Source: Clostridia bacterium
GTDB taxonomy: Bacteria > Bacillota > Clostridia > Christensenellales > Aristaeellaceae
Direction: 5' to 3'
NCBI GenBank assembly: GCA_017544935.1
Contig: JAFYDF010000143.1
Coordinates: 1 to 37,294 of the forward strand
DNA: 37,294 nt
The notes under the pieces were generated by a model. The model saw nothing but the letters and a program-made list of their open reading frames with translations. It had not been told where the DNA came from and made no database searches. Made by a program: the position numbers and the translations under genes. Shown here one piece after another: positions 11,027 through 29,857 of this stretch (positions are counted from its first letter, which is position 1; each line of letters begins with the position of its first letter).

Positions 11027-12250
11027 TCAGAAAGCCCATTTACCCTTCCGGAAGATAGCGACCGTTTTTCCGTCGCGGGTAACGGCATCTATATCCAAAC
11101 CTTCGTAGCCGATCATGAAATCGGTATGAATCATGGAGTCGTTGATGCCCAGAGCACGGCATTCCGCGAGAGTCTTGTTTTCAAAACCCTTGATCGTATC
11201 CGCAAACCCTCTGCCAAGTGCCAGATGGCAAGCAGCATTTTCGTCAAAGAGAGTGTTGAAGAACAGCAGGCCAGATTCGGAAATGGGAGAATCTACAGGC
11301 ACCAGGGCACATTCGCCCAGATAGGCAGCGCCTTCATCCATGGAGATCATCTGTTCCAAGAGGGCCTGATTCTTTTCTGCTTTGACTTCTACAGCCTTAC
11401 CGTTTTCAAAACGGACTGAGAAGTTCTCAATAAGCTCGCCACGGAAAGACAGAGGCTTGGTCGCATAAACAATACCTTCAGCCTTGCCGCGCATAGGCGA
11501 AGTGAAGCATTCTTCGGTAGGAATGTTGGGATCGAAGAAAACTCCCTGGATGGTAGTATCTCCGCCGCCCTTGAATTCCGCTTCGGGAATCATACCGACA
11601 GTCAGGTCAGTGCCGTTGTCACCTTTATAGTGGAGCTCGGCAATGCCCAGACTGTTTAGATAGGCACAGCGAGCCTGCAGATCCTTATTGTGGGCATCCC
11701 ACGCCGCAATGGGATCGTCGGTCACACGGGCTGCGAACAGAATGGCCTCCCATAGCTTTTCGATCGCTTTGCCCTTAGGCAATTCGGGGAAAAGCTTCTT
11801 AGCCCATGCTGCACCGGGAACAGCTGCAATGCACCACTGGCATTTGTTTTCCATTTTATCCATATAGGGCTTCAAAATCGGATAACGCTTCTGACTCGAT
11901 TTTGCGATTTTCGATTGATTGATGCCTTTCAGACCGTCAGGATCCCGGGAAGCTAAAGAGATACGGCAGGGAAGTACATCAGCGTAATGCTGCAGGCGTG
12001 CGATCTCCCAATCATCGACTTTGGACATGGTGGTAACGGTCTGGTGGCGAACTTGCAGCTTTTCAAGACGTTGGTAATTGAACTCGACCGTGACCTTTTT
12101 AGCGCCTGCTTTATAGCATTCATCTACCAGCAGTTCGACAAACTTTGGCTGATCGAGGTCACAGCGAATAATGACTTCCTGGCCTTTTTGAATGTTTACG
12201 CCTGTTCTTGCGATCAGGCGCGCATAATTGCGAAGAACTGTTTGTTTCAT
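11027..12250 (-). CDS. M29-family aminopeptidase (copy A)
   Basis: This 407-aa metallo-aminopeptidase removes N-terminal residues from peptides in the cytoplasm and uses two divalent metals. The M29 ligands are visible: E247 in EECFTSP, E313 in LGECALVP, H342 in NAACHLALG, and H375 and D377 in MIHTDF. The N-terminal half forms the dimer and substrate-gating region of the AmpS/AmpT family, and its length (about 410 aa) is typical. The ATG at 12250 is preceded by AAGGAGA. It is a paralogue of the gene at 12497-13720, with the same length and an identical stretch SPMRGKAEGIVYATKPLS; each has its own promoter. The two may differ in specificity or expression. Confidence 0.92.
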   Translation of the reverse strand: MKQTVLRNYARLIARTGVNIQKGQEVIIRCDLDQPKFVELLVDECYKAGAKKVTVEFNYQRLEKLQVRHQTVTTMSKVDDWEIARLQHYADVLPCRISLASRDPDGLKGINQSKIAKSSQKRYPILKPYMDKMENKCQWCIAAVPGAAWAKKLFPELPKGKAIEKLWEAILFAARVTDDPIAAWDAHNKDLQARCAYLNSLGIAELHYKGDNGTDLTVGMIPEAEFKGGGDTTIQGVFFDPNIPTEECFTSPMRGKAEGIVYATKPLSFRGELIENFSVRFENGKAVEVKAEKNQALLEQMISMDEGAAYLGECALVPVDSPISESGLLFFNTLFDENAACHLALGRGFADTIKGFENKTLAECRALGINDSMIHTDFMIGYEGLDIDAVTRDGKTVAIFRKGKWAF

Positions 12251-12496: not shown

Positions 12497-13720
12497 TCAG
12501 AAAGCCCACTTGCCCCTGCGGAAGATCGGAACAGTCTTGCCGTCACGGGTGATGGCATCGATGTCCAGTCCCTCATAACCGATCATGAAATCGTTGTGTT
12601 CCATGGAATCGTTGATGCCCATTGCGCGGCACTCTTCCAAGGTCTTGTCCTCGAAACCGCTGATGGTATTGGTAAAGCCCATGCCCAGCGCGAGATGACA
12701 AGCAGCGTTCTCGTCGAACAGCGTGTTGTAGAACAGGAGTCCCGACTCGGAGATGGGGGAATTCACGGGCACGAGCGCGCATTCGCCCAGATAGGCCGCA
12801 CCTTCATCCATAGAGATCATCTGTTCAAGGAGTGCCTGGTTCTTTTCAGCTTTGACTTCAACGGCCTTGCCGCCTTCAAAGCGTACGGAGAAGTTCTCGA
12901 TCAGCTCGCCGTTGTAGGATAAGGGCTTGGTCGCATAGACGATGCCTTCCGCCTTGCCGCGCATCGGGGAAGTGAAGCATTCCTCACTGGGAATATTGGG
13001 ATTGAAGCCGATGCCTTTCAAACTGGTCTCAATGCCGCCCTGGAACTCCGCTTCGGGGATCAGACCGACGGTCAGGTCAGTGCCGTTATCGCCCTTGTAG
13101 TGAAGCTCAGCAATGCCCAGACTGTTGAGATAGGCGCAGCGATCAGCCAGATCCTTGTCGTGGGCTTCCCACTCGGCTACGGGATCATCCGTAACACGGG
13201 AAGTGGAGAGAATAGCCTCCCACAGCTTTTCAATGGCTTTGCCTTTAGGCAGGTCGGGGAAAAGCTTCTTTGCCCAAGCAGCGCCGGGAACAGCGGCAAT
13301 GCACCATTGATACTTGTTTTCCATCTTATCCCAGAAAGGCTTGACAATGGGATAGCTCTTCTGATCAGCCTTTGCCATCTTCTCCTGATTGATGCCCTTG
13401 AGCCCATCGGGATCGTCAGAGTCCAGATAGATGCGGCAGGGCAGGGTGTCCACATAATGCTGAAGGCGGGCCTTCTCCCATTCAGTGACCTCACTCAGAG
13501 CCTTAACAGTCTGATGACGTACATGCAGCTTTTCCAGGGGCTGATGGTCGAATTCAACTTTGACCTTGCGGGCACCGGCTTTATAGCACTCGTCTACCAG
13601 CATTTCAACGAATTTCGGCTGGTCCAGGCCGCAACCAATGATGACATCCTGTCCCTTCTGGATGTTGATGCCCGACTGGGCAATCAGACGCGCATACTTG
13701 CGAAGAACTGTTTGTTTCAT
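12497..13720 (-). CDS. M29-family aminopeptidase (copy B)
   Basis: This 407-aa protein is a paralogue of copy A and keeps the same metal ligands: EECFTSP, LGECALVP, NAACHLALG, and an H-N-D triad in MEHNDF replacing H-T-D. Divergence is concentrated in the first half (for example the KALSEVTEWEKARLQHY region) and near the SLKGIGF segment, while the catalytic half is nearly the same. The start is ATG 13720, preceded by TGGAGA; an upstream in-frame extension to 13816 runs through the promoter and is discarded. A consensus promoter at 13776-13804 and its own terminator make it a single-gene unit. The tandem arrangement points to a duplication. Confidence 0.92.
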   Translation of the reverse strand: MKQTVLRKYARLIAQSGINIQKGQDVIIGCGLDQPKFVEMLVDECYKAGARKVKVEFDHQPLEKLHVRHQTVKALSEVTEWEKARLQHYVDTLPCRIYLDSDDPDGLKGINQEKMAKADQKSYPIVKPFWDKMENKYQWCIAAVPGAAWAKKLFPDLPKGKAIEKLWEAILSTSRVTDDPVAEWEAHDKDLADRCAYLNSLGIAELHYKGDNGTDLTVGLIPEAEFQGGIETSLKGIGFNPNIPSEECFTSPMRGKAEGIVYATKPLSYNGELIENFSVRFEGGKAVEVKAEKNQALLEQMISMDEGAAYLGECALVPVNSPISESGLLFYNTLFDENAACHLALGMGFTNTISGFEDKTLEECRAMGINDSMEHNDFMIGYEGLDIDAITRDGKTVPIFRRGKWAF

Positions 13721-13775
13721 AGTAATAATCTCCATTAATCTAATATTTTGATCGTTTCTACAACAGATCAATTTA

Positions 13776-13804
13776 AGTATATTTGGCTGCGCAGTAACAA
13801 GCAA
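13776..13804 (-). promoter_or_regulatory. sigma-A promoter of M29 copy B
   Basis: On the minus strand TTGCTT (13799-13804), 17 bases, TATACT (13776-13781). The start codon is 56 bases downstream. Confidence 0.7.
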
Positions 13805-13844
13805 GCTCAAAAACATTTATAAATGAATTTGCTCACGTTATTGC

Positions 13845-16244
13845 TTAATCGTTAAGATTATAGTAATCCGGGATAAATACGCGCCCTCCGCGGGAGTTGT
13901 GGCGTCTGTAGCAGCTGTCGCATAAACGGTAGGGCCAGTTCCACGGCAGGTGCTTTTTACAGCTGTGGCATACCTTCTGCTGAAGCTTCTGTGTAGACAG
14001 GATATGAATGATCCCTTGCGAGATCAGGTCCTTGCGGCGCTGGATCTCATCCAGGATGATGTCCGGGTCTTCCAGAAACAGACGTGAGTAGTTGTAATAC
14101 AGATCACACCGGCGGTAGTCTGCTTCCAGAGCATCCAGCATCCATATGGTGCATTCTTCCGGATTCAGCAGGCGGGGGATCTGCGTGAGCACTTCGATGT
14201 GTTCACCCTGGCTTTCGGCATGATACATGGCTTTCCATCGCGTCAGCAGATCCGGTTCAGTCTCATCAAAGGGAATACACAGGAAGCGGTAAAGCAATTC
14301 CTTGTTGGTATGCTTGGTTTCCAGCATTGCTGCCAGGGTTGCCATGCGCACCGTTGAAGCCTTGGAAAAACAGCCTTTATCCTGCATCAGCATCCATTGG
14401 TTAATGATCTGTGTCAGGGGCAGGGGAATACCCAGCAGCGATTCGGGGAAACGGATGACTGCTTCTGTAAGCGGTCGCAGGGGTTTGCTGAGAGCGGATG
14501 CTACCAGGCCCTTGAAACCGTAAGCATTGACGTAACCGATGTCATAGATGCCGTAGCGTCCGGCGCGGCCTGCGATCTGCTTGATCTCGGCGTCTGTCAG
14601 GGTGCGTGTGATATCACCATCGTATTTTTCCGATTCCAGGAATACTACGCGCTCAATGGGCAGGTTCATACCCATGGCGATGGCATCGGTGGATACCACC
14701 ACATCGGTTTCGCCCTGGTGGAAGCGTTCCGCCTGATCGCGGCGAACATCCGGCGGCAGAGCACCGTAGATCAGGGACACGCGATATCCTTTGCTGCGCA
14801 GTTCAGCTGCCACGGCATGCACACGGGCTTTGGAGAAAACGATCAGCGCATCGCCCGGGCGTACGGAACCGGGGAACTGGAAACCTTCTTTTTCAACCTC
14901 CAGCGGAGTCATGCGTTCGTGACGTACGATGGAAAGCTCATCGCCGCAGTCTGTGATCATACGGGTCAGGAGCGCCTCCGCATCCGGGCTGGCGCAGGCA
15001 TGGATCTCATCTGCGCAAAGGCCCAGGATAGCTGCTGTCCAGGCTCCGCCGCGGTCCCAGTCAGCGATCATCTGGCATTCGTCAATGACAGCAACGTCAT
15101 AATGGGTATTGAGGTCGGCCATCTCCACAGTACTGGACTGAACGCGGCTGCCGGGTACCCGGATCTGCTCTTCGCCGGTCACCAGCGAGCAGGGCACATC
15201 ATCCATGTTAAGGGTCTCGAACTGCTCTGCGGCAAGCAGACGCAGTGGACCCAGGTAAATGCCATGCCGGGCGCCGCGAAGCCGCTGAACGCCTTCATAG
15301 GTCTTGCCGGAATTGGTGGGCCCCAGATGCAGGATAAATCTGCGCTTCATCTGCCTGGCCAGGGGATAAAGATCACGGTAGTGCTCCGGAATAGCATTCA
15401 GAAGTGCAGTGCGCAGACGCTGTTCTTTTGCCATGCGCGCGTCGTTCTGCTTCTGCAGACGCCGCAGGGACGGATTTTCAGTGATAAGCCTGCGTATGCG
15501 CTTTTCGGGGAACCTGCGCCGGATCTCACCGCACAGGCTGTGCTGGGCATTGCTCACTTCAGCCTTGATCAGTGTGCTGACCTTTTCGCCGTTAGGAGTA
15601 ATGATCCCGCCGCAGGCCGTCAGTTCAGGATGCTCCCGGGTGATCTCTTGCCGAAGCAGGGTGGTCAGGGACTCGGGAAAATACGAGTCTATGATCATGT
15701 TGTTGGAGAGGCCTTTCTGAAAACGGTTCTCCAATACATATGCAGCCACATGCTCGGCTTTCTGCGGGCTTTTGAGGCCTGAAACCAGATCACCCTTTTT
15801 CAGAAAACGTTCTACACGGGCTTCGGTCTCGGTCAGATACTGACCGCGTTTTTCTTCCAGGATCTTTCGGGGAATATGATCATGCAGCAGATTCAATGCT
15901 GCATGCGCCTTGGCCAGTGGTACGCGGCTGCGTTCTACCGACCGCAGGAAAGGCAGGTCTGCTTTGCCTTCTGCCATGATCAATCCTGCCAGACTTTCAA
16001 ACTCTTCCTGGTTATAATCCGAGAAGAGCTCTCCGCGCAGAAGCATCTGGTAGGTCTTGTCCCGGCGCTTTAACTGATACAGCGTATTTTGAAATCCCTG
16101 GCTCTGCAGGTACTTTTCCTTTTCCGCTTCGGACATGTCGCGCGTGACGGGCTTGACTTTTGTCAGTGCCCGCTTGTAAAGATAGTCTTCGCGTTCCTTT
16201 GCTGCAGCCTGAGCATATAACTCCTGCGCTTTTTGCCTGTCCAT
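13845..16244 (-). CDS. SUV3-like DExH-box RNA helicase with C-terminal zinc ribbon
   Basis: This 799-aa protein is an ATP-dependent helicase of the SUV3 type, the group that in mitochondria unwinds RNA for degradation. Walker A is GPTNSGKT (about 308-315) with the SUV3-typical LHLGPTNSGKTYE context. Motif II is VIDECQMI (about 387-394), and DRGGAWTAA follows. The second RecA lobe has LIVFSKARVH, DAIAMGMNLP (motif V) and IKQIAGRAGRYG (motif VI). The C-terminus ends in CHSC..CDSC (about 755-780), a likely four-Cys zinc ribbon. The first 300 residues are basic and helical and match nothing I recognise. The ATG at 16244 is chosen over a GTG at 16253 because AGGAGG is eight bases upstream of the ATG. 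It follows the tautomerase gene at 68 bases on the same strand. Confidence 0.88.
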   Translation of the reverse strand: MDRQKAQELYAQAAAKEREDYLYKRALTKVKPVTRDMSEAEKEKYLQSQGFQNTLYQLKRRDKTYQMLLRGELFSDYNQEEFESLAGLIMAEGKADLPFLRSVERSRVPLAKAHAALNLLHDHIPRKILEEKRGQYLTETEARVERFLKKGDLVSGLKSPQKAEHVAAYVLENRFQKGLSNNMIIDSYFPESLTTLLRQEITREHPELTACGGIITPNGEKVSTLIKAEVSNAQHSLCGEIRRRFPEKRIRRLITENPSLRRLQKQNDARMAKEQRLRTALLNAIPEHYRDLYPLARQMKRRFILHLGPTNSGKTYEGVQRLRGARHGIYLGPLRLLAAEQFETLNMDDVPCSLVTGEEQIRVPGSRVQSSTVEMADLNTHYDVAVIDECQMIADWDRGGAWTAAILGLCADEIHACASPDAEALLTRMITDCGDELSIVRHERMTPLEVEKEGFQFPGSVRPGDALIVFSKARVHAVAAELRSKGYRVSLIYGALPPDVRRDQAERFHQGETDVVVSTDAIAMGMNLPIERVVFLESEKYDGDITRTLTDAEIKQIAGRAGRYGIYDIGYVNAYGFKGLVASALSKPLRPLTEAVIRFPESLLGIPLPLTQIINQWMLMQDKGCFSKASTVRMATLAAMLETKHTNKELLYRFLCIPFDETEPDLLTRWKAMYHAESQGEHIEVLTQIPRLLNPEECTIWMLDALEADYRRCDLYYNYSRLFLEDPDIILDEIQRRKDLISQGIIHILSTQKLQQKVCHSCKKHLPWNWPYRLCDSCYRRHNSRGGRVFIPDYYNLND

Positions 16245-16312
16245 GCCCGTCACCTCCTTACAGCCTGTTTTACGGTGATGTGCCGGATATAACCGGCAAT
16301 CATCCGTTCAGA

Positions 16313-25955: not shown

Positions 25956-27272
25956 TTATTTATTTTGGAGACTATGACGGATGTCGTCCACAAGGCCTGC
26001 CAGGCTGGGGGAGGTGCGAAGGTCTTCAGCGACCTTATCACAGCCGTGGAGTACTGTGGTATGGTCACGCTTGCCGATAGCGTCGCCGATACGGGACATC
26101 GAGCAGGCGGTCATTTCACGGCAAAGATACATGGCGATCTGGCGCGGAACGCTGACCTCGCGGTTGCGGCGCGGGCCTTTCAGATCCTCAGGCGTGACAT
26201 TGTAATAAGAAGATACGACACGGAGCACATCCTCACAGGTCACATTGTGCGGGGCGTTCTCGGCGAATACCTCGCGCAGCGCTTCCTCAGCCAGCGCTTT
26301 GTCGATGGGACGGTGCGTCAGTGAGGAATAGGCAGAAAGACGGGTCAGACTGCCTTCGAGTTCACGGATATTGTTTTCCACCCGCTCGGCGATCAGGTGC
26401 AGCACTTCGTCATCGCAGTCAAGCATTTCCTCCTGAGCACGGCGGCGCAGGATCGCGATGCGCGTCTCGAGGTCAGGACGCTGGATATCTGCGATCAGGC
26501 CCCATTCGAAACGGCTGCGCAGACGCTCTTCCAGACGCGGGATCTCGCGCGGGGGACGGTCACCTGAGATTACGATCTGCTTACCGGCGGAATGAAGGGC
26601 ATTGAATGTATGGAAGAACTCTTCCTGCGTGCTCGTGGCACCGCCGATGAACTGGATATCGTCGATCATCAGTGCATCGACATTGCGGTATTTTTCACGG
26701 AAAGCTATGGTCTGACCGGTCTGAATGGCTGAGATCAGCTCGTTCATAAACGTTTCACTGGTCACATAACAGACCTTACGGTTTGGATTCTCATTCAGCA
26801 GATAATGGCAGATGGCATGCATCAGATGCGTTTTTCCAAGACCCACGCCGCCATATACGAACAGTGGGTTATAAGCATCTGCCGGGGATTCGGCTACGGC
26901 CAGGCAGGCGGCGTGCGCGAACCGGTTGCTGTTGCCTACGACAAAGGAATCAAAGGTGTACTTTGGATTCAGGAAGGCAGGCTTCGGAACGGCGGATACA
27001 GCAGGCTGACGGTAGGTTTCCGCTTCTTCCGGGGTCATAAAGCGCACATGAAGCGGGCGGGAAGCGGCTTTGGAAAGCGCGTTCTCGATCTGGATGGTAT
27101 AACGTGAAGACAGGTGCTGCTTGAAAAACAGCGTCGCTGTCTGCAGAACAAAAGTATCGCCGTCCAAAGCGATCGGTTTGAGCGGTGCCTTGATCCAGGT
27201 ATCATATGTGACGCTGGTCATATCAGCGCGCAGTATATCACAGGTCTTCTCCCAAAGCTGGGCGGTATCCAA
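25956..27272 (-). CDS. dnaA: chromosomal replication initiator DnaA
   Basis: This 438-aa AAA+ protein binds DnaA boxes and melts oriC. Domain I covers residues 1-80. A short linker of about 20 residues follows, then domain III with Walker A GGVGLGKTH (141-149), Walker B MIDDIQFIGG and the LEERLRSRFEWGL sensor region. Domain IV ends with the DnaA signature RDHTTVLHGCDKV. The start is TTG at 27272: CGGAGGCG is eight bases upstream, the frame is open, and MDTAQLWEKTCDILR matches family N-termini. The linker is short, so the protein is a little smaller than B. subtilis DnaA (446 aa). It is not followed by dnaN; an aminotransferase lies downstream. Confidence 0.97.
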   Translation of the reverse strand: MDTAQLWEKTCDILRADMTSVTYDTWIKAPLKPIALDGDTFVLQTATLFFKQHLSSRYTIQIENALSKAASRPLHVRFMTPEEAETYRQPAVSAVPKPAFLNPKYTFDSFVVGNSNRFAHAACLAVAESPADAYNPLFVYGGVGLGKTHLMHAICHYLLNENPNRKVCYVTSETFMNELISAIQTGQTIAFREKYRNVDALMIDDIQFIGGATSTQEEFFHTFNALHSAGKQIVISGDRPPREIPRLEERLRSRFEWGLIADIQRPDLETRIAILRRRAQEEMLDCDDEVLHLIAERVENNIRELEGSLTRLSAYSSLTHRPIDKALAEEALREVFAENAPHNVTCEDVLRVVSSYYNVTPEDLKGPRRNREVSVPRQIAMYLCREMTACSMSRIGDAIGKRDHTTVLHGCDKVAEDLRTSPSLAGLVDDIRHSLQNK

Positions 27273-27725: not shown

Positions 27726-28205
27726 ATGGTGCAGGCAGAAGAGATCAGTGTTCTGCTGCATCCCTGGCTCGGAAAAGCGCTGCTGCTCCGGAGTGATGTC
27801 TGTGAGAAGGCTGCTTCACTTCTGAATGGCTTTATGCCGGAAGCGGGTAATCTGGAAAGCCTTGAAAAATCACTGGACACACTGCTTTTCCGTACAGTCC
27901 ACAGCATGACGCAGGGCGATATGCGTATCCTGCTGGATGACGGCCGGATCGTGCGCGTGCGCATGGATGATTTCGCCATGATGGCGGATGACCTGCTGTA
28001 CTTGAAGATGCGCGAGATATCGCGCATGCCGCGTGGATACGAACGTATACGCAGCTATGCAATGTCACATAGCAGCCTGGCAGCATTGCGGGCACTGCTG
28101 GTTGACCTGGCATCCATGCAGAGTGAAGAAGAGCTGGCGGCGGTTGCACAGACGGTGCGATCCTGCCATCCGCCCTTTCGCTGGCAATACTGGCTGCAAA
28201 ACTGA
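27726..28205 (+). CDS. hypothetical protein, first gene of the parAB operon (159 aa)
   Basis: I do not recognise this family. The 159-aa protein is soluble and mostly helical by pattern. It starts VQAEEISVLLHPWLGKALLL, has a central acidic/hydrophobic stretch (DMRILLDDGRIVRVRMDDFAMMADD) and ends with the aromatic tail HPPFRWQYWLQN. It has no signal peptide, no transmembrane segment and no nucleotide-binding motif. ATG 27726 is supported by AAAGGGGG at proper spacing; the frame is open further upstream but only through the origin repeats. It is 17 bases ahead of parA on the same strand, so a link with chromosome segregation or origin control is plausible by position only. Confidence 0.75.
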   Translation: MVQAEEISVLLHPWLGKALLLRSDVCEKAASLLNGFMPEAGNLESLEKSLDTLLFRTVHSMTQGDMRILLDDGRIVRVRMDDFAMMADDLLYLKMREISRMPRGYERIRSYAMSHSSLAALRALLVDLASMQSEEELAAVAQTVRSCHPPFRWQYWLQN

Positions 28206-28222
28206 TAAAAGAGGGGATTTAT

Positions 28223-28993
<771 letters not shown>

Positions 28994-29011
28994 GATTGTG
29001 AGGAATGCGTA

Positions 29012-29857
29012 ATGGCAACCAAGAAAGGTCTTGGACGCGGGCTGGATATCCTGCTGCCGGAAAGCGATATGCCCGGCGGAACGACCGAGATTGCCCTGAA
29101 TGATCTGGATCCAAACCCTGAACAGCCGCGCCGCGCGTTTGACCGCGAAGCGCTGGAAACGCTGGCTGAGAGCATTCGCCAGAGCGGAGTCCTGCAACCG
29201 CTGCTCGTCACGCCCGAGGGCGCCCGCTACCGCATCGTAGCCGGTGAGCGCCGCTTCCGTGCTGCGCGCATGGCAGGACTGCAGACGGTACCTTGCGTTG
29301 TGCGTGAAATGGATGAACGCGAGCGCATGGAGGCCGCGCTGATCGAGAACTTGCAGCGTGAAGACCTGAACCCCATTGAAGAAGCGAACGGTATCCGTGC
29401 GCTAATGGATGAGTGCGGGTACACGCAGGAAACGGCCGCACAGCGTGTCGGCCGTTCGCGTCCGGCAGTGGCAAACCTTCTGCGCCTGCTGAACCTTCCC
29501 GAAGATATTCAGGCACTGGTAGAAAGCGGCGAGATATCCGGGGGACATGCGCGTGTCCTGGCCGGCATCCGCGATGAGGCCTGGCAGCATAAGCTGGCAC
29601 AGCGCATTGTTGCGGAAGGACTCAGCGTCCGCGAGACTGAGCATCTGGCTGTCATCCCGGAAAAAGTACCGGTCAAGCATGAGCCTGTACCGATCGCGGC
29701 AGAGCTTGAGGACATGCGTGCCCGCCTGCAGACGGTCCTCGGTGTGCGTACTGCTTTGCGCGGTAACCTGAAGCGCGGCAAGGTGGTGCTGCAGTATAAT
29801 TCTGCCGAAGAACTGGAAGCCATTTTTGAAGCCATGGAAAGGCTTGAAAACGGCTAA
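29012..29857 (+). CDS. parB: ParB/Spo0J-family partition protein
   Basis: This 281-aa protein binds parS, uses CTP to clamp and spread on DNA, and recruits SMC. The N-terminal KKGLGRGLDILLPE is typical of Spo0J. The CTP-binding core is visible as GVLQPLLVTP and GERRFRAARMAG (about 75-90), then ENLQREDLNPIEEA. The helix-turn-helix follows in ETAAQRVGRSRPAVANLLRLL. A C-terminal dimerisation region ends the protein. It starts at an ATG with GTGAGGA upstream. It lies between parA and uppP with short gaps. Confidence 0.95.
   Translation: MATKKGLGRGLDILLPESDMPGGTTEIALNDLDPNPEQPRRAFDREALETLAESIRQSGVLQPLLVTPEGARYRIVAGERRFRAARMAGLQTVPCVVREMDERERMEAALIENLQREDLNPIEEANGIRALMDECGYTQETAAQRVGRSRPAVANLLRLLNLPEDIQALVESGEISGGHARVLAGIRDEAWQHKLAQRIVAEGLSVRETEHLAVIPEKVPVKHEPVPIAAELEDMRARLQTVLGVRTALRGNLKRGKVVLQYNSAEELEAIFEAMERLENG

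Follow-up and report, generated by a model that had tools for sequence, protein, structure and literature searches.

Helicases of the SUV3 family have been studied almost solely in mitochondria. A literature search returned mitochondrial work or general reviews, with a 1999 Rhodobacter homologue cited, and nothing on the function of a bacterial SUV3. Yeast Suv3 depends on a 3′ single-stranded tail or overhang and passes the RNA to Dss1 (PMC5758563). Together with PNPase, human SUV3 carries out the ATP-dependent degradation of structured RNA with 3′ overhangs, and the same pair resolves R-loops in mitochondria (PMC12599292). The N-domain of the human enzyme, which is the most diverse region of the SUV3 family, contacts mtPAP (PMC10253155).

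The gene described here lies in a window of 37,294 nucleotides, the whole stretch of DNA that was analysed, from a Clostridia bacterium. Its open reading frame is intact on the minus strand, from the ATG at 16244 to the stop at 13845, and it is single-copy in the source genome (G000; 2.0 Mb, 87% complete). The gene called at this place by the initial annotation is real, and all the motifs quoted there were found in the 799-residue protein: GPTNSGKT at residues 308–315, DECQ at 388–391, IAGRAGRYG at 557–565, and the cysteine pairs CHSC and CDSC at 759–762 and 775–778. The ORF finder proposed a frame of 802 residues with a GTG start; this GTG falls within the Shine-Dalgarno sequence AAGGAGGTGA and is an unlikely start. 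Coordinates of the gene and its domains are collected in Table 1.

Table 1. Positions in the window of the helicase gene, its domains and its ribosome-binding site
Feature	Position	Strand	Basis
SUV3-family RNA helicase gene, 799 aa + stop	13845..16244	minus	ORF, translation, Pfam matches
Shine-Dalgarno AAGGAGGTGA	16250..16259	minus	5 nt before ATG 16244; sequence read directly
N-domain, residues 1–285, all-helical, basic, fast-evolving	15390..16244	minus	AF2, conservation, pI
RecA1, residues 286–450, motifs I GPTNSGKT and II DECQ	14895..15389	minus	DEXQc_Suv3 291–441
RecA2, residues 451–600, motif VI QIAGRAGRYG	14445..14894	minus	Helicase_C 462–565
SUV3-type C-terminal all-helical domain, residues 601–752	13989..14444	minus	structural alignment to human SUV3
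Putative zinc ribbon/knuckle CHSC-x12-CDSC with LPWNWPY loop, residues 753–782	13899..13988	minus	Cys conservation
R/G-rich disordered tail, residues 783–799	13848..13898	minus	pLDDT <50

The motor had been read as SUV3-type from its motifs, and profile searches, structures and conservation all agree. The Pfam profile DEXQc_Suv3 (PF22527) matches residues 291–441 with an E value of 6.6e-60 (201.6 bits for a cut-off of 27), and Helicase_C (PF00271) matches residues 462–565 (E 4.8e-15, 56 bits). Among 61 relatives, the Walker A residues K314 and T315, the motif II residues D388, E389 and Q391 and the motif VI residues Q556, R560 and R563 are invariant. The nearest PDB entries by sequence are yeast Suv3 (E 4.5e-72) and human SUPV3L1 (7e-71), far ahead of Ski2/Mtr4, and both reach about 1e-98 in a profile search of the PDB. 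With full-length orthologues as low as 54% identity added to these Pfam and PDB values, a match beyond chance is confirmed at the level of sequence. The AF2 model of the whole chain has a pLDDT of 87.9 and a pTM of 0.61, so that it does not fix how the N-domain sits against the motor. This model superposes on SUV3 with Z scores of 41–42 for the two best entries, the next families standing at about 20, and the superposition covers RecA1, RecA2 and the C-terminal helical domain, from model residues 274–286 through 757–769. The latter domain was recognised by structure, the alignment to SUV3 extending to its residue 689; the Pfam profiles SUV3_C and Suv3_C_1 gave no sequence match in this part of the helicase, and SUV3_C does match a relative from Azospirillum lipoferum. 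The motor is acidic (pI 5.2), and mean majority identity reaches 0.87 in each RecA domain. The protein is thus almost certainly an SUV3-family RNA helicase, with a strongly supported complete two-RecA motor and an SUV3-type C-terminal helical domain, and it belongs within this family beyond mere similarity.

Compared to human SUPV3L1/SUV3 (PDB 3rc3, 3rc8, 7w1r), the RecA1-RecA2-C-domain arrangement is alike, with a Z score of 41.2 over 477 residues (rmsd 2.7, 33% identity) and an alignment spanning approximately model residues 274–769 of the bacterial helicase. The N-domain of the latter is different and about twice as long, DECQ stands where the human protein has DEIQ, and a C-terminal zinc ribbon and R/G tail are added, without a mitochondrial leader. 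Suv3 of the Candida glabrata mtEXO (PDB 6f4a) is equally close, its motor and C-domain aligning over 421 residues with a Z score of 41.8 (rmsd 2.2, 34% identity). The partner of Suv3 in mtEXO, Dss1, is an RNR-family nuclease, whereas no RNB-domain protein was found in the source genome. Closer to home, proteins of Lachnospiraceae annotated ‘helicase-related protein’ (Butyrivibrio proteoclasticus B316, Lachnospira eligens) are 40–50% identical in the motor and carry the same C-terminal CxxC-x12-CxxC, but mostly have short N-regions; a few long ones share the N-domain remotely. The DEAD-box proteins RhlB and CshA also have an RNA helicase fold and a presumed role beside PNPase, but they belong to another branch of superfamily 2, and with the NCBIfam models for CshA/RhlB the helicase stays far under the cut-off (CshA 27 versus 646 bits). 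The distinction from bacterial degradosome helicases that had been suggested is therefore upheld in family terms, as SUV3 versus DEAD-box. We also observed an SUV3-like motor in the 440-kb Salicola phage SCTP-2 (MF360958.1, 67798–68892), annotated hypothetical and 39% identical over query residues 289–645.

The part of the protein that sets it apart lies upstream of the motor. The initial annotation had noted about 300 N-terminal residues with no recognised domain, and this was borne out: nothing above cut-off was found in residues 1–300 with Pfam, NCBIfam or PADLOC, and 55 homologous N-domains gave neither a family above cut-off nor a Suv3_N match. Pfam matches to RCS1 (5.8e-4) and Uricase were below cut-off and recurred in few homologues. 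Folded alone with its relatives, the N-domain gave an AF2 model with a pLDDT of 94.4 and a pTM of 0.80, almost entirely helical, with 17 helices. It is basic (pI 9.6) and fast-evolving, with a column identity of 54% compared to 87% in the motor (mean majority identity 0.54), and only 5 of its 285 positions are invariant. A Foldseek search with this model against the PDB and viral structures gave no match at E ≤ 0.001 and none below E 0.7. CNOT1, considered as a fold relative, had a best Z score of 5.5 with an rmsd of 6.9 on a second look, which is in the chance range for helical proteins, and was set aside. The fold-search lists hold no SUV3 N-domain either, an absence that is compatible with a relationship. 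On the modelled structure the N-domain thus appears without a known fold match, which is not proof of a new fold. It is a real, unrecognised and lineage-restricted addition, and the unusual part of the helicase.

Full-length orthologues, 52–95% identical and here called class A, occur in about 60 of 200 genomes of the source family; in named records their hosts are uncultured rumen or gut Clostridiales, Clostridia, Christensenellaceae or ‘Christensenella sp.’. Elsewhere in the order the N-domain profile had no match, the only genomes matched among 248 being those of this same family. Some paralogues of the family and some Lachnospiraceae proteins have N-regions of 300–345 residues. These were compared with the class-A N-domain by profile comparison excluding shared members (shuffled sequences gave P values of 0.18–0.73). 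Links were obtained for the L158 type (P 3.7e-12), L044 (2.6e-6), L160 (5.6e-6) and L156/L043 (2e-4), and none for the L162 type, L045 and L174. Most Lachnospiraceae forms have about 30–200 residues before motif I, and no N-domain homology was detected in these short forms by the same comparison. At the sequence level, the N-domain is therefore strong in one family of rumen Clostridia and appears remotely in paralogues and Lachnospiraceae. As N-region length and homology both differ among bacterial SUV3s, the N-terminus is their variable module. Two SUV3 paralogues coexist in some genomes, a class-A protein and another whose N-domain has diverged (L165/L170 in G732; L166 and L158/L171 in G731).

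At the other end of the protein, all 60 aligned sequences have C759, C762 and C778, and 59 have C775, the exception being one C775F, so that the cysteine pairs are conserved in orthologues. Neither of the two outcomes named in the initial annotation as refuting it, a standard SUV3 N-domain or unconserved cysteine pairs, was thus observed. Two CxxC pairs at ribbon spacing point to a zinc ribbon, with zinc binding predicted. Class-A tails following it have 27% Arg on average, and R and K together make up 30% compared to 14% for whole proteins. The ribbon had also been taken as a mark of a special architecture, which did not hold. C-x2-C-x12-C-x2-C ends nearly all Clostridia SUV3s examined, forms with a short N-terminus included, and the ribbon was found in Butyrivibrio proteoclasticus, Lachnospira eligens, a protein of another Bacillota family (L057) and Azospirillum lipoferum. 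It is absent from L044, L048–L050, L055 and L176 and from the relatives in Azospirillum brasilense, Ideonella and Pseudomonas. A motor tree gives class A as a single clade (support 1.0) and unites all Bacillota sequences (0.90). Support for the deeper branches within Clostridia is low (0.52–0.73), so that gains and losses of the ribbon are not countable. As judged from these cysteine patterns, the ribbon is a general accessory of bacterial SUV3s and ordinary among relatives. One ribbon-bearing homologue (L206) is carried by the Butyrivibrio proteoclasticus plasmid pCY186 (61579–63678), where it is annotated only as ‘helicase-related protein’.

We then consider the exoribonucleases with which such a helicase could work. 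No RNB domain (PF00773; RNase R/II) was found in the source genome (87% complete) or in 11 sampled genomes of its genus, control genomes being matched as expected; an RNase R partnership is therefore unlikely here. In four genomes of genus g26 assembled in one or two contigs (G091, G132, G163 and G185), the SUV3 gene is present and no RNB was found, and incompleteness is not the reason there. Of the 200 family genomes, 47 encode an RNB-domain enzyme; RNB was not found in about three quarters of the sample, near-complete one- or two-contig genomes included. PNPase (TIGR03591) scored above cut-off in 198 of the 200, the source genome among them. Hence, of the exoribonucleases that accompany SUV3 in the known degradosomes, the RNB-domain enzyme of an mtEXO-like complex was not found in the same genome, and the PNPase of a SUV3-PNPase complex is encoded. 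Replacement of RNase R by SUV3, at which the pattern in the source genus seemed to hint, was considered and rejected. By genome, the SUV3/RNB association is weakly negative (p 0.03–0.07, uncorrected for kinship); by genus there is no avoidance, class-A SUV3 occurring in 12 of 50 genera, RNB in 15 and both in 5, for 3.6 expected. As the SUV3 gene is patchy (about 65 of 200 genomes) while PNPase is universal in the family, PNPase does not need the helicase.

The gene neighbourhood gave no indication of a partner. A MIF-like gene and a DUF218 gene lie upstream of the helicase and two M29 aminopeptidase genes downstream, none with an RNA-related function, and no structured RNA family was found close to the gene. 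RNase R and PNPase had been put forward as conserved neighbours. Across 79 named loci no conserved neighbour was found, neither these two nor another, no operon with either and no genomic link to any RNase; the commonest neighbour families are dispersed, and since neighbour ORFs were picked mechanically, a conserved partner under 70 aa could escape detection. Some other features of the window may be mentioned. The two aminopeptidase genes (11027–12250 and 12497–13816) are in tandem, closely similar and directly downstream of the helicase; dnaA lies at 25959–27272, about 10 kb away, and the window is probably near the replication origin; a 380-residue ORF without a Pfam match at 28058–29197 may be a spurious antisense frame.

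By analogy with its family, the helicase would grip a 3′ single-stranded RNA tail and translocate 3′ to 5′, and its ATP-dependent unwinding of structured RNA would let a 3′ to 5′ exoribonuclease degrade it. PNPase would be the most likely exonuclease partner here, as for human SUV3, since PNPase is encoded in the genome and RNase R/II was not detected. Around the conserved acidic motor, the basic N-domain, the basic ribbon and the R/G tail would probably provide extra grip on RNA and docking for a partner or substrate, and the fast evolution of the N-domain suggests a lineage-specific contact. We infer a role of the kind already proposed in the initial annotation, in RNA decay or in tRNA/rRNA quality control, and lean towards an assistant of RNA decay; that it would assist decay with PNPase specifically is a more tentative proposal.

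Other readings have to be weighed against this one. The same basic N-domain, basic ribbon and R/G tail are typical RNA-binding add-ons, and together with the lack of a genomic link to nucleases they would suit a helicase that remodels ribosomes or structured RNA (rRNA/tRNA quality control, assembly, stress or cold) with no exonuclease, the N-domain and ribbon docking it on an RNP; since characterised members of the SUV3 branch are linked to decay by exonucleases (PMC5758563, PMC12599292), we regard this as unlikely. Quite improbable is an R-loop- or DNA-directed helicase acting in genome maintenance or in mobile-element or phage defence. The mitochondrial SUV3-PNPase precedent for R-loops (PMC12599292), the patchiness of the gene and its plasmid-borne relatives (for example on Butyrivibrio pCY186) speak for it, but PADLOC gave merely generic helicase-domain matches, all to the RecA2 half, on which a defence system was rejected, and neighbourhoods show no recurring defence or mobile-element signature.

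A further alternative concerns the N-domain and is compatible with assistance to RNA decay: it could derive in part from the standard SUV3 N-domain, diverged and enlarged by an insertion, which would make the architecture ordinary. Both domains are helical and stand just before the motor, and no part of SUV3 proteins is more diverse than the N-domain (PMC10253155); the missing fold match is compatible with such an origin. However, Suv3_N (PF18114, 116 positions) has no match in the source genome at E ≤ 10, and a search of the PDB with a profile built from the 55 N-domains did not retrieve any SUV3 chain even at E ≤ 10. Structural alignments to SUV3 begin at model residues 274–286, and about 285 residues are to be accounted for, compared to a human N-domain ending near residue 172, mitochondrial leader included. 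A standard SUV3 N-domain was thus not recognised by sequence, and a diverged one seems doubtful. As the N-domain varies widely across the SUV3 family, Suv3_N was not treated as essential for membership. In the opposite direction, the N-domain could be a new helical fold docking the helicase on PNPase (or RNase Y/J), which we hold to be decidedly unlikely. If true, Clostridia without RNase R would have a mitochondria-like, SUV3-based degradosome instead of a DEAD-box one.

The protein is a genuine SUV3-family helicase from a poorly studied bacterial branch. With its common ribbon and variable N-domain, this clade of rumen and gut Clostridia would allow the ancestral role of the family to be tested in bacteria, and since some of these genomes are without RNase R, how structured RNA is cleared in them becomes a concrete question.
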